Source of the DNA: Clostridiales bacterium
GTDB lineage: Bacteria; Bacillota; Clostridia; Christensenellales; Borkfalkiaceae
DNA: 64,000 bases
Assembly: GCA_015055805.1 (NCBI GenBank)
Contig: SVHN01000001.1
Coordinates: 241,982 to 305,981 of the forward strand
Direction of reading: 5' to 3'
The position numbers and the translations under genes were made by a program. How positions within the stretch are numbered: position 1 is the first letter of the stretch; each line of letters opens with the position of its first letter. The notes under the pieces were generated by a model. The model was given only the letters and a program-made list of their open reading frames with translations. It did no database searches and was not told the DNA's origin. Shown one piece after another: positions 13,659 through 47,046 of this stretch.

Positions 13659-16127
13659 GTGTATGGAGCTTTAACGCTTGGTATGGTAAAATATAAAGGT
13701 GGAATATCGTGCGAAAAAATTGCGCGGTTTAGAAATATGGATAGTAAACACTTTAACGTATATATTCCCATAAATGCAGATAATACGGTTTTAAGCGCGG
13801 CGGAACTATTTAAGTCGGCAATCTCAAAAACGCTAGCAAAAAATGCTGTAATATCTAGTAGTTTAGAACTCGAAAAAATAAACCAAGGTTTTGTTTTTTC
13901 GACATTTTCTTGCGTTAAAAGCAAAAAGGCTGAAAGCCTTTCAAAAAAGGTAAAAGGCGAGGACTTTGCAGTTTATAAAGAAAGCGGCGCGGTGTACGTT
14001 TTATCGCACCTTTCGCGCGGCGTGTATTACGGCGTGTGTGAACTTATTGAAAGAAACTTGCCCGTCGTGTTTTCAAGAGGCGCAAAAGAAGAGAGCCTGC
14101 AATACTTAAAAGTAGATGCGTGTGATTTTACAGATACCGATTTTATATGTAACTGTGATTTTTCGGTTAGGTCGTTTAATCTTTGCGGTTTAGGTTCGGA
14201 CGGGGTAGGACATATAGACTACGGCACGGCGGAAAATCTTGCAAGGAACAAATGCAATTCATTTTTTCACAGTATAGACGACGAGTGGCGAAACTTCGGT
14301 GTGTTCCATAACGGCAAGCGCGTTAGAAGTTTGCAAGTGTTCGACGACCTTATGACAGAACACCCAGAATATTTTATGACGGGTATAGACGGAAAACCTA
14401 AGTCTGCGTTCGGTGGGTACGAGAGTTTTCCAAACTATTTTAATAAGGACCTGCCGAAGGTGTTAGCACAGCGTGTCGTCAAAGATATGGGCGAACTAAA
14501 AGGTGAAGATATTTTACATTGGACTATGCCCGATAATTCTTGCTTTTTCGTTATGGGAAACGGCGTAAAGTTACACGAACAACCCTTTACTTGTGACGAC
14601 GGAACGGTGGTTTATCCTAGTCAGGCTAACTATAAGTCCACCGTGTATTTTAATTTTGTAAACCGACTTATTAAAGAGATAAATAAGCTTAGACCGGGAA
14701 CTAGTTTGCAGGTGTTTAGTTATATTTACACAGAGCTTGTCCCAGCAATAGATATAGATAAACGCTTAAAGATTTTATACGCGCCTATATTCACTAACGA
14801 AAAATATCCTTATACGGATTTGACGGATAGCAGTAACGCTGGAATAAGAAAGAATTTAGAAGAGTGGTCGAAAAAGACCGACGAGCTTTACGTATACGCC
14901 TACTGGCAAACGTTTAGCGGCTCAACTTATACAAGACCTATTCTTAAAACGGTCAAGGAAAATCTTAAATGGTTTAGGACTATCGGCGTTAAAGGCATAA
15001 CCGTGGAAATGGTTACCGATTGCAGTTTTATTGAAAACCTAAGCGATAGTCAGAAAAACCAAATACAGTTTTTCGATATGAACGAGGCGTACGTTTGGGC
15101 GGTGAGTAAACTTATGTGGAATCCCGACCTTGACGTTGATGAGCTTTTAAGAAGATATACGAAGGTCGTGTATAAAGAATGCGCGCAAGAAATCTTTGAA
15201 TACTTTAAGTTGATTGAAAGCGGTTGGGATAAAACCCCTGCGACCGTATGGTATACGACGGGCGGCGACGTTTATTACTTGCAAATGGTAGTAGGCGCAG
15301 GGATTGACGATAAGGTCTTAAGTGTGCTAGCCACCGCAACAAAAAAGGCGACGACACCGTCGGTAATAAGAAAGGTTAACAGCATATACAAGGTTGTAAG
15401 CGTAGAGATTGAAAAGTATAAAAACTTCGTTGCTGAAAATGCCGAAGTCAGCTACTTTGATGGTGACGGACGCACGCTTTTAACCAAGACAGAAATGGAC
15501 TATGAGAATAACCCTGAAAGTTTTTGGAACAATGTAAAACCCTTAACCGTGCTTAGAAACGCAAGGACACTTCAATTTTATCCCGAAGAAACTAAGTTTT
15601 CTTTAAGAATAGTTTATGACAAAGAAAACCTATATTTTGGATATACCTTGCACGATAGAGAACTAAGCCAAGTTAAAGTCACCGATAGCGGAAGAAAACT
15701 TTATTATAGAGAGAATGGAAAGCAAATAGTTGCGCTGTCTGAAACGTATATAGGCGGCGACGTTGTAAATCAATCGGTGTACTACGGCTACACTAGTGGG
15801 TTTACCGACGCAAACAAAAACGAACAGGGCGATTTTTACGTAAATAACGGTGAAATAAAAAGCATCAAGATACCCGACGGAGTTTATACGAAAAACTTTG
15901 CGCGTTTGGATAAGGATAAAGACAAAAGATACCTTTTCCACGTTCAAGTTATACCTTTCGCTGTTTTGGGTGAAAGTGTAGACACGGCAAAACCTTACGG
16001 TTCTTTTGCCTACGTTTCGGACAAGTTCGGCGTTGCAGGCTGGCAGGGGTTCGGACTGTGGAGCAAACAAAATTTCAAGGAGTTTACGCTAGTAAACAGC
16101 ACGGAGGCTAATAAATGCAAAAGTTAG
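13659..16127 (+). CDS. DUF4838-type (alpha-glucuronidase-like) protein
   Basis: N-terminal 'SHLSRGVYYGVCELIERNLP' GH67/GH20-like domain and 'LKWFRTIGVKGITVEMVTD'; start codon uncertain. Confidence 0.7.
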   Translation: MYGALTLGMVKYKGGISCEKIARFRNMDSKHFNVYIPINADNTVLSAAELFKSAISKTLAKNAVISSSLELEKINQGFVFSTFSCVKSKKAESLSKKVKGEDFAVYKESGAVYVLSHLSRGVYYGVCELIERNLPVVFSRGAKEESLQYLKVDACDFTDTDFICNCDFSVRSFNLCGLGSDGVGHIDYGTAENLARNKCNSFFHSIDDEWRNFGVFHNGKRVRSLQVFDDLMTEHPEYFMTGIDGKPKSAFGGYESFPNYFNKDLPKVLAQRVVKDMGELKGEDILHWTMPDNSCFFVMGNGVKLHEQPFTCDDGTVVYPSQANYKSTVYFNFVNRLIKEINKLRPGTSLQVFSYIYTELVPAIDIDKRLKILYAPIFTNEKYPYTDLTDSSNAGIRKNLEEWSKKTDELYVYAYWQTFSGSTYTRPILKTVKENLKWFRTIGVKGITVEMVTDCSFIENLSDSQKNQIQFFDMNEAYVWAVSKLMWNPDLDVDELLRRYTKVVYKECAQEIFEYFKLIESGWDKTPATVWYTTGGDVYYLQMVVGAGIDDKVLSVLATATKKATTPSVIRKVNSIYKVVSVEIEKYKNFVAENAEVSYFDGDGRTLLTKTEMDYENNPESFWNNVKPLTVLRNARTLQFYPEETKFSLRIVYDKENLYFGYTLHDRELSQVKVTDSGRKLYYRENGKQIVALSETYIGGDVVNQSVYYGYTSGFTDANKNEQGDFYVNNGEIKSIKIPDGVYTKNFARLDKDKDKRYLFHVQVIPFAVLGESVDTAKPYGSFAYVSDKFGVAGWQGFGLWSKQNFKEFTLVNSTEANKCKS

Positions 16128-45414: not shown

Positions 45415-47046
45415 ATGAAAAGAGAACAAAAGGTTATTTTAACTTGGCTTTTGTCCTTTATTGCAACTATTTGTTTGTTGCTTGGTTTTTTTGCGATTTT
45501 ACCGCAAAAAGCGGTGGCATCGTCGGAAGATTTTTCTATGACCAAAGCAGAAGTTCGTTTGGACGATAATAGCGGTATACGCTTTACGGCAAAACTAACT
45601 GCATCTGCTTACGAAGATAATTGTGAATATTACGTTATGATAATCCCTTACGATTGGTTTGACGAATATAACTTATCGTTCGGTGATGATTATTATGACG
45701 TTTTGATAAATGAATATGAAATAAAGCCTGAAGACGTGTTGATTATGCGCTCGTCGCCTGTTCAGCAAACTTCGGGAGACTATCTCATTTCAGGTAGTAT
45801 TTCTAAGGTTTTATATAAAAACAGTAACCGTGAGTTTTTCGGTATTGCGTATAAACAGGATAGCGACGGAAAAAGAACTTATGCAACGGAAGATAAGTCG
45901 TACATAAAAAGTCTTGCAGCTGTTGCCGTTGCGGCTACAAAGGTAGAGAACGCTAATTACACTCAAAGTGAAAAGGCTGAGCTTGATTCTATGATACGCC
46001 GTGCGTTCAACCAACTTTCTGGCAAAAAAGAAAATAACCAAGGCGCGATTGTTTTTCAGATGAATACGGCAAAAATGAGCCTTTCTCAAGGTGATACGGC
46101 TAATTTAAGCGTACGATATGCCGAAGAGTTGGGATTTGACGTTGTTTGGGAAAGTCAAGATAAAAGTAAGGCGACGGTGGACAAAAACGGAAAAGTAACC
46201 GCGCTTGTTTCCGAGGGCGTGTGCAGCGTTACGGCAAAAGTATACGGACAGACTTGCACTACCGTGATAATGTTCCGTCCTAAAATGGCAGACAACTTTT
46301 TGGAAGATTTTTCGCACGAAGGTAGCGCGCTTAATATGAACACGAGTAATTGCGGCGACCTAAAACAATCGGGAACGTGGCTAGCAAGTTTTAAAGGGGC
46401 GCAAGGCGTTGGCTATTGTCTTGCTTATAAATCCATGAACGCTTTGGCTGTGCGTTTTGGGCGTAGTTTAGAATACCTAAAGAACTTAGACTTTGATAGT
46501 ATTACCGTTAGGCTTTATATGGATTGGGAAGGCGTGGATAAAAAAACGGGTGAGCCTATAAGAAAACATTCGCTTTGCATCGGAACTAAACGTGAATTAA
46601 ATGTTCCCACTAAAGAGTGGTATGATTTTACCGTTACCAAAAACGAACTGTTATCTAATCGCGAAGGGAATACGGCAAAAGAGCGGCACGAAAATTTTTG
46701 TAAAACCTTTAACAATGCAGGTTCGGGACAATTTTTAATGAGTTTTCACGACGGTAATAATTCCATTCCTATTTATATTGACTCAATAACTTTCGGGTTT
46801 ATTGACGTTGAAAAAAAGGCTGCCCCAACGTCGGCAGGTGAAACGTTTATATTGCCAACGGCAAAGCTTTTAGCTGGTGAAACGATATTATCAGAAGAAT
46901 ATAGTGTAAACGTTAAAGTTGGTGAAACCGAAGTCGCTGTAAATAACGGTGAAATTATAACGCAAAACGGAACTACGGTAGTAGAATATACTTTTATATA
47001 CGACGGTGTTACTTATAAAAAAACGTACGTCTTTGACGTGAATTAA
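45415..47046 (+). CDS. Secreted protein: 'GIRF' domain, BIG2-like domain, one locus-2-type module, C-terminal Ig-like region
   Basis: Signal 'MKREQKVILTWLLSFIATICLLLGFFAILPQKAVA'; 'VVWESQDKSKATVDKNGKVTALVSEGVCSVTAKV'. Confidence 0.8.
   Translation: MKREQKVILTWLLSFIATICLLLGFFAILPQKAVASSEDFSMTKAEVRLDDNSGIRFTAKLTASAYEDNCEYYVMIIPYDWFDEYNLSFGDDYYDVLINEYEIKPEDVLIMRSSPVQQTSGDYLISGSISKVLYKNSNREFFGIAYKQDSDGKRTYATEDKSYIKSLAAVAVAATKVENANYTQSEKAELDSMIRRAFNQLSGKKENNQGAIVFQMNTAKMSLSQGDTANLSVRYAEELGFDVVWESQDKSKATVDKNGKVTALVSEGVCSVTAKVYGQTCTTVIMFRPKMADNFLEDFSHEGSALNMNTSNCGDLKQSGTWLASFKGAQGVGYCLAYKSMNALAVRFGRSLEYLKNLDFDSITVRLYMDWEGVDKKTGEPIRKHSLCIGTKRELNVPTKEWYDFTVTKNELLSNREGNTAKERHENFCKTFNNAGSGQFLMSFHDGNNSIPIYIDSITFGFIDVEKKAAPTSAGETFILPTAKLLAGETILSEEYSVNVKVGETEVAVNNGEIITQNGTTVVEYTFIYDGVTYKKTYVFDVN

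Follow-up and report, generated by a model that had tools for sequence, protein, structure and literature searches.

Two paralogous loci in a 64,000-nt stretch of a Clostridiales genome (hereafter the window: positions 241982-305981 of contig C18 of genome G000, a 1.73-Mb draft of 20 contigs and 95.7% completeness) appear from their gene content to be ancient Gram-positive polysaccharide utilization units, each carrying a short gene for a peptide that resembles the precursors of ribosomally synthesized and post-translationally modified peptides (RiPPs), immediately upstream of a gene for a secreted protein with a GIRF domain. Our best reading, to which we assign a probability of roughly 0.55, is that these are glycan capture and import loci whose RiPP-like, probably phosphorylated peptides would be exported as tags working with the GIRF surface protein.

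Two loci with the same gene order

A sequence-only reading of the window had proposed that the regions 16115-27567 (locus 1) and 33515-47046 (locus 2) match gene by gene and that two GH20-like paralogues lie between them. All-against-all BLASTP of the window open reading frames (ORFs) bore this out, with order and strand kept and identities of 27-42% between the loci; the GIRF proteins of the two loci are related as well. Two refinements were made to the first gene list: locus 2 holds two GIRF proteins (43079 and 45415), and the DUF4838 gene at 13659-16127 belongs to the locus-1 chassis, because its homologues precede the permeases in the loci of contig C19 and genome G021 (L006 and L052). Profile scans named the ATP-binding cassette (ABC) permeases, the binding proteins, the GH123-like lipoproteins, the GH20-like enzymes and the Big_2 domains, and gave no significant Pfam or NCBIfam name for the ~435-aa lipoproteins, the module lipoproteins or the GIRF domain. 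The features are as follows (HMM, hidden Markov model; identities from BLASTP).

1..842 (+): C-terminal portion of a GIRF protein with which a third unit ends; runs on from L007:18536-19991; open frame of 770 aa
13659..16127 (+): DUF4838 protein, gene 1 of the locus-1 chassis; Pfam PF16126 1e-29; homologues hold this position in L006 and L052
16115..17071 (+): locus 1 ABC permease 1; 42% identical to 33515-34555, E 3e-81
17083..17979 (+): locus 1 ABC permease 2; 41% identical to 34574-35503, E 6e-80
17963..19687 (+): locus 1 solute-binding lipoprotein; SBP_bac_1 5.7e-5, slightly below the curated cut-off; 30% identical to locus 2, E 6e-80
19710..22256 (+): locus 1 GH123-like (DUF4091) lipoprotein; GH123 N and catalytic domains above cut-off; 30% identical to locus 2, E 2e-106
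22266..23585 (+): locus 1 ~435-aa lipoprotein, no Pfam match; 27% identical to 39729-41024, E 2e-25
23598..25415 (+): locus 1 module lipoprotein; C-terminal tail VDQDNGDHIQYWQ; its two modules, specific to the locus, are 42% identical to those of GIRF protein 25633, with none found in other loci; N-part 27% identical to locus 2, E 2e-12
25479..25619 (+): locus 1 short RiPP-like peptide MKRKYLPPTAYLDMLEPLDVLTTSTTGQSVDQSNGDHIQYWSDDVI, 46 aa; family HMM matches; Shine-Dalgarno sequence AAAGGAGG upstream
25633..27567 (+): locus 1 secreted GIRF protein with GIRF domain, Big_2 and two locus-specific modules; GIRF HMM, Pfam Big_2, module profiles
27680..29242 (+): GH20-like glycosidase; Pfam GH20 5e-16, GH20C_C 1e-41
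30480..31361 (-): inter-locus AraC-type regulator; resembles 10041 and 59017 at the C-terminus; AraC assigned by eye
31539..33380 (+): GH20-like glycosidase, paralogue of 27680; 40% identity; both match Pfam GH20 and GH20C
33515..34555 (+): locus 2 ABC permease 1; BPD_transp_1 9e-9
34574..35503 (+): locus 2 ABC permease 2; BLASTP to locus 1
35571..37196 (+): locus 2 solute-binding lipoprotein; SBP_bac_1 1e-9
37218..39707 (+): locus 2 GH123-like lipoprotein; Pfam GH123
39729..41024 (+): locus 2 ~435-aa lipoprotein; BLASTP to locus 1
41037..42806 (+): locus 2 module lipoprotein; C-terminal tail YDPSLDDVYIP; its two modules are locus-specific, occurring elsewhere only in 43079 and 45415
42951..43073 (+): locus 2 short RiPP-like peptide MTTKKSYTPAIINLVLLTKDIMNESQTPLNYDPSLDDVYL, 40 aa; family HMM matches; Shine-Dalgarno-like sequence upstream
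43079..45118 (+): locus 2 GIRF protein 1, two modules; GIRF HMM, module profiles
45415..47046 (+): locus 2 GIRF protein 2, with one module and Big_2; no separate short peptide found for it; GIRF HMM, Pfam Big_2, module profile
47096..48478 (+): GH28 polygalacturonase-like protein, immediately 3′ of locus 2; Pfam GH28 6.5e-13

A short RiPP-precursor-like peptide precedes the GIRF genes

In every examined transporter-linked unit that is not cut by a contig end, an ORF of 38-51 aa lies immediately 5′ of the GIRF gene. Automatic pairing joined 54 of the 71 GIRF genes of the genus with such a peptide, the unpaired genes being partly GIRF domains deep in very large proteins, or second copies, and the pairing of peptide and GIRF was also found in other genera of the family. 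The sequence-only reading had listed a short tailed peptide in each locus, and both exist behind a Shine-Dalgarno-like sequence; what it missed is that they belong to a conserved RiPP-precursor-like family linked to a system of RiPP recognition element (RRE), kinase and peptidase, and it also passed over the tail match within each locus and the locus-specific modules common to the lipoprotein and the GIRF protein.

The peptide leader reads MKKxYxxP, about ten residues, and DVxxxS, and is followed by a variable acidic, Gly-rich, aromatic tail. Among 54 aligned sequences the Ser is invariant and the Tyr and Asp are almost invariant, and this 54-row alignment displays the anatomy of a RiPP precursor, that is, a short precursor with a conserved leader and a variable core. 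A double-glycine leader was rejected, no consistent GG site being seen by eye. In five related pairs the tail codons carry 19 synonymous versus 10 nonsynonymous changes, which indicates that the short ORF is very likely translated and its tail under purifying selection. Two further occurrences are recorded here: a seventh short peptide of the window's genome (L223, at C18:155003) stands directly 5′ of a gene for a secreted protein without a recognised GIRF domain, and two tandem short peptides follow a large repeat protein at L208:1501-1744 in genome G033.

The peptides are linked to a PqqD-kinase-protease system

The peptide leader resembles the YxxP motif of the targets of lasso-type RREs. 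In lasso systems, the RRE binds YxxP leaders (PMC13381572) and speeds an HPrK-like kinase with the motif H...GxGKS...DD (PMC10368454). The window's genome encodes one PqqD-type stand-alone RRE (5.6e-18), directly after an HPr-kinase-like gene whose product carries H..GxGKS..DD, and the kinase motif is present in 34 of 39 PqqD loci. Among NCBIfam models, this PqqD is nearest the lasso PqqD models and the kinase nearest ScmC and HprK-related kinase A, all below the curated cut-off. In other genera an S26/signal-peptidase-like protease gene comes next in the kinase-PqqD operon, in some cases together with an ABC exporter gene, and nine such proteases retain SMxP, HR and GD. A homologue of the protease is encoded at C1:8666-9094 in the window's genome (1e-38), and each of the six same-genus genomes tested gave one strong match; in loci L242-L247 of the window's genus the homologue has as neighbours a gene resembling proA and one for a conserved membrane protein, and is apart from the kinase and PqqD. 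The B2 transglutaminase-like protease (PF13471) was found in none of six genomes, the window's own included, and a lasso peptide identity was rejected on the absence of this family. No asparagine-synthetase-like cyclase (C) was seen beside PqqD, and no search aimed at the cyclase was made.

Across 257 genomes of the family outside the genus, the peptide co-occurs with PqqD (52/18/10/177, p 1e-28) and with GIRF (p 3e-39), and the co-occurrence with PqqD is significant both in the GIRF-negative (p 4e-4) and in the GIRF-positive (p 2e-4) subset. Physical linkage was observed as well: a modification gene adjoins the precursor in G454 and G470, where the peptide is gene 1 of a kinase-PqqD-S26-like peptidase operon, and in G451, where it lies 5′ of PqqD and a nucleotidyltransferase; in the window's own genome the two are not adjacent. 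A blind search of 398 genomes from outside the family with the peptide HMM returned two matches, the stronger of which (1.7e-8, in G427 of another family) is again a peptide-kinase-PqqD-protease arrangement, with the kinase adjoining. Co-occurrence, physical linkage and the blind match in G427 together provide strong evidence for the window peptides as RiPP-like substrates, an assignment that we regard as likely, and the family of the kinase suggests that the peptide may be phosphorylated.

Tails are copied within some loci and covary modestly with the GIRF domain

The tail at the end of the locus 1 module lipoprotein is VDQDNGDHIQYWQ, and its counterpart within the peptide is VDQSNGDHIQYW (match score 73, rank 0 of 48); in locus 2 the tails are YDPSLDDVYIP on the lipoprotein and YDPSLDDVYL on the peptide (score 53, rank 0 of 48). 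Over 49 loci the matched tail score lies above all 10,000 permutations (p < 1e-4), a signal carried by a minority, namely both window loci, L054, L056 and L052; universal tail sharing was accordingly rejected. An independent case was found in another genus (L232), where a lipoprotein consisting of almost nothing but a signal, a Cys and a linker of Ser and Asp before the tail (L232:8443-8904, minus strand) ends in DDDSHWTSNY and the adjacent peptide in DDERNWTSNY. Further, a 90-aa membrane-anchored protein of G651 (L233:6467-6739, minus strand) ends in DDDDNWTNNY and is encoded by gene 1 of a kinase-PqqD-peptidase-ABC operon. The tail is thus portable and C-terminal on surface-anchored proteins, which argues for action outside the cell.

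With near-duplicates removed, tail similarity tracks GIRF-domain similarity (rank r ~0.17, p <= 0.001), and leader similarity does not. This pattern is consistent with coevolution of tail and GIRF domain; a pairing of the two is plausible, and we place it somewhat short of an even chance.

Locus-specific modules and the GIRF domain

The modules of the lipoprotein and the GIRF protein are 42% identical within locus 1 and 29% within locus 2, and profiles of the window modules match essentially nothing in other loci. Module-type sequence in common with a non-GIRF protein of the same locus was found in 40 of 90 GIRF proteins, and sharing affects 8.3% of same-locus protein pairs versus 0.47% of other-locus pairs. 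This is the signature that would be expected for a locus-specific ligand, presumably a glycan, held by an anchored and a secreted partner.

The GIRF domain occurs in 119 of the 301 family genomes sampled and in none of the 398 other sampled genomes of the phylum. Its AlphaFold2 model, built from 66 sequences, is of high predicted quality (local distance difference test score, pLDDT, 90.7; template modelling score, pTM, 0.83) and is beta-rich with two C-terminal helices; a first AlphaFold model of the entire locus-1 GIRF protein was too poor to interpret. A CBM21/Ig-like sandwich identity was not adopted, the fold-search matches being weak only. A peptide-binding role for the domain would be a guess.

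Number and history of the units

The protein fragment at the start of the window had been suspected to be the end of another unit, and it is the end of the GIRF protein closing a third one, which runs from C18:230.9k to window position 842. This unit (L007, C18:222000-241990) comprises a binding protein, two permeases, lipoproteins of 1353 and 524 aa, a 49-aa peptide and the GIRF protein; repeated modules of the 1353-aa lipoprotein recur in the GIRF protein of the unit, also in the stretch at window 1-842. HMM searches of the window's genome counted at least six units, those beyond units 1-3 lying at C4 and C7 and, cut by the contig end, at C19, plus isolated GIRF matches at C7, C14 and C15. 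Units 1, 2 and 3 lie on one contig (C8) of the sister genome G004, and the locus arrangement is therefore not a misassembly. A related-locus search with permease 2 returned only an identical locus from a metagenome-assembled genome and a distant Halobacillus permease.

Permease 1, permease 2 and the binding protein gave one and the same tree topology, (((locus 1, C19 locus), G021 locus L052), locus 2), with support at the key forks of 100/99 for the binding protein, 97/94 to 100/99 for permease 2 and weaker values for permease 1. Three congruent trees indicate that the components were co-duplicated and did not meet by accident; the chassis thus appears to have been inherited in one piece, and the separation of loci 1 and 2 to be older than the G021 lineage. 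The earlier proposal of an old duplication of a modular, expandable surface and import system is supported by these trees and by the number of units.

Among neighbouring genes, a rhamnosidase-like enzyme (3662-5521) and the GH28-like enzyme (47096-48478) flank the loci and hint at pectic or rhamnose-containing substrates. The window further contains a glycine riboswitch (Rfam RF00504, 56 bits, 51616-51691) that precedes a gene at 51771 for a TRIC-like membrane protein (type judged by eye), a HipA-like kinase (53000-54115; Pfam HipA_C 1.5e-44) and an AAA_14/DUF4143 ATPase (57423-58721; Pfam).

Proposed mechanism and alternatives

We propose that the membrane-anchored lipoprotein and the secreted GIRF protein would hold a glycan through the same locus-specific, presumably glycan-binding modules, that GH123-, GH20-, DUF4838- and GH28-like glycosidases would trim it, and that the binding lipoprotein and the two permeases would take up the oligosaccharides. 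The RiPP-like cassette of each unit, 5′ of the GIRF gene, would supply a precursor of ~45 aa, and the only PqqD-type RRE of the genome would bind the YxxP leader in trans. The HPr-kinase-like enzyme encoded next to this RRE would phosphorylate a Ser, either the invariant one of DVxxxS or one in the tail, and the signal-peptidase-like protease would cut off the leader ahead of export. Outside the cell the mature tail may then work with the GIRF protein; in the simplest case the GIRF domain would recognise it as a ligand or tag, and the tail copy on the lipoprotein C-terminus may dock the GIRF protein to the membrane. The glycan-import part of this scheme is likely, and a glycan specificity of each locus is presumed.

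Several observations weigh against the scheme as a whole. No more than about six loci show a clearly shared tail, and most have none; the tail-GIRF correlation is modest, and the tail is the part of the ORF nearest the GIRF start, overlapping its ribosome-binding region in places. In the window's genome the protease homologue lies in an unrelated neighbourhood, beside a proA-like gene, and no exporter was identified. Eighteen peptide-positive genomes gave no PqqD match, and many of these, though not all, are incomplete; the co-occurrence statistics ignore phylogeny and draw on incomplete draft genomes. The GIRF fold is without a close solved relative, its best neighbour in the PDB being CBM21-like (E 1.2e-3, TM 0.36-0.51).

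The peptides might instead act as RiPP signals or bacteriocins, accompanying nutrient loci without interacting with the GIRF protein. Their RiPP-like anatomy and machinery would fit, as would the peptides that precede other secreted proteins with no recognisable GIRF (L223, L200 and L236); yet the almost fixed pairing with GIRF genes, the tail copies on lipoproteins of the same locus, the tail-GIRF covariation and the failure to recognise an immunity gene in the loci make this rather unlikely. Less probable again is that the loci are ordinary Gram-positive polysaccharide utilization loci in which the short ORF serves the GIRF gene only for translational coupling or as a regulatory leader, and the shared tails are a leftover of local DNA duplication. 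The peptide stop lies just 14 nt (locus 1) and 6 nt (locus 2) from the GIRF start, loci 1 and 2 have kept partial identity in their tail DNA, and most loci have no common tail, all of which such a leader would explain; it would not explain an amino-acid leader conserved across genera, purifying selection on the tail codons, synonymous differences between common tails, peptides preceding kinase-PqqD-peptidase operons without GIRF downstream, or the association with PqqD among GIRF-negative genomes. High protein divergence might suggest that similar genes were acquired independently or share their order by accident; this is contradicted by the three congruent gene trees and by gene order kept in several loci and genomes, and is very improbable.

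Extended to the whole genome, the tag-peptide reading would amount to a peptide code, in which one RRE-kinase-peptidase set matures dispersed, locus-specific precursors in trans and each tail pairs with its own GIRF domain and tailed lipoproteins. We consider this extension speculative and, on balance, improbable; if true, every glycan locus would build a capture complex of its own, and specificity of the SusC/SusD kind would have a Gram-positive counterpart made from RiPPs.

Comparison with known systems

Lasso peptide systems (B1 RRE, PadK, BsfK; PMC10368454, PMC13381572) are alike in the YxxP leader, the stand-alone PqqD-type RRE and the HPrK-like kinase with H/GxGKS/DD. They differ in that here a signal-peptidase-like protease stands in place of the B2 family, many dispersed precursors would be served in trans, and the tails do not resemble lasso cores. 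The SynChlorMet (ScmC/ScmD) and HPr-rel-A (TIGR04352/TIGR04353) cassettes likewise combine an HprK-related protein with a PqqD-family chaperone and gave the best NCBIfam kinase matches, but these matches fall under the curated cut-offs and the partner genes and precursors differ; no published function for the cassettes was found in the literature searched. Orphan PqqD-HprK-like pairs of this kind would gain a defined substrate set from the present peptides.

The earlier comparison with Sus/PUL systems of Bacteroidota holds in concept, as surface glycan capture and import by expandable sets, but not in membership: no TonB-dependent receptor, SusC or SusD match was seen among the scanned locus proteins, and import would proceed by ABC transporters with lipoproteins. 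A closer class is the Gram-positive polysaccharide utilization locus (gpPUL), defined by at least one polysaccharide-degrading enzyme, a carbohydrate transport system and a transcriptional regulator (PMC5320581). The loci contain GH123, GH20, GH28 and DUF4838 matches as predicted enzymes; BPD_transp_1 and SBP_bac_1 transport proteins, of which the locus-1 matches fall under the curated cut-off and were placed by orthology to locus 2; and AraC-like genes at 10041, 30480 (-) and 59017 (-), assigned from sequence. As in the gpPULs of Roseburia and Eubacterium rectale (PMC5320581), glycosidases, an ABC sugar importer and AraC-type regulators are clustered; unlike them, the loci add a GIRF surface protein, a module-sharing lipoprotein and a RiPP-like peptide, families mostly without a Pfam name.

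We found no paper joining polysaccharide utilization loci with RiPP precursor peptides in the gut in the literature searched, where glycan foraging and ribosomal peptide modification, which the present reading would link, are apparently unconnected. That reading would also offer a function for a widespread family of ~45-aa ORFs in uncultured gut-type bacteria, and it highlights the GIRF domain, without a Pfam or NCBIfam name and restricted to one bacterial family among the genomes sampled. The components are of known kinds; what appears to be new is their combination, in which a gpPUL chassis carries a RiPP-like peptide, dispersed and served in trans, whose partner is a lineage-specific surface protein.

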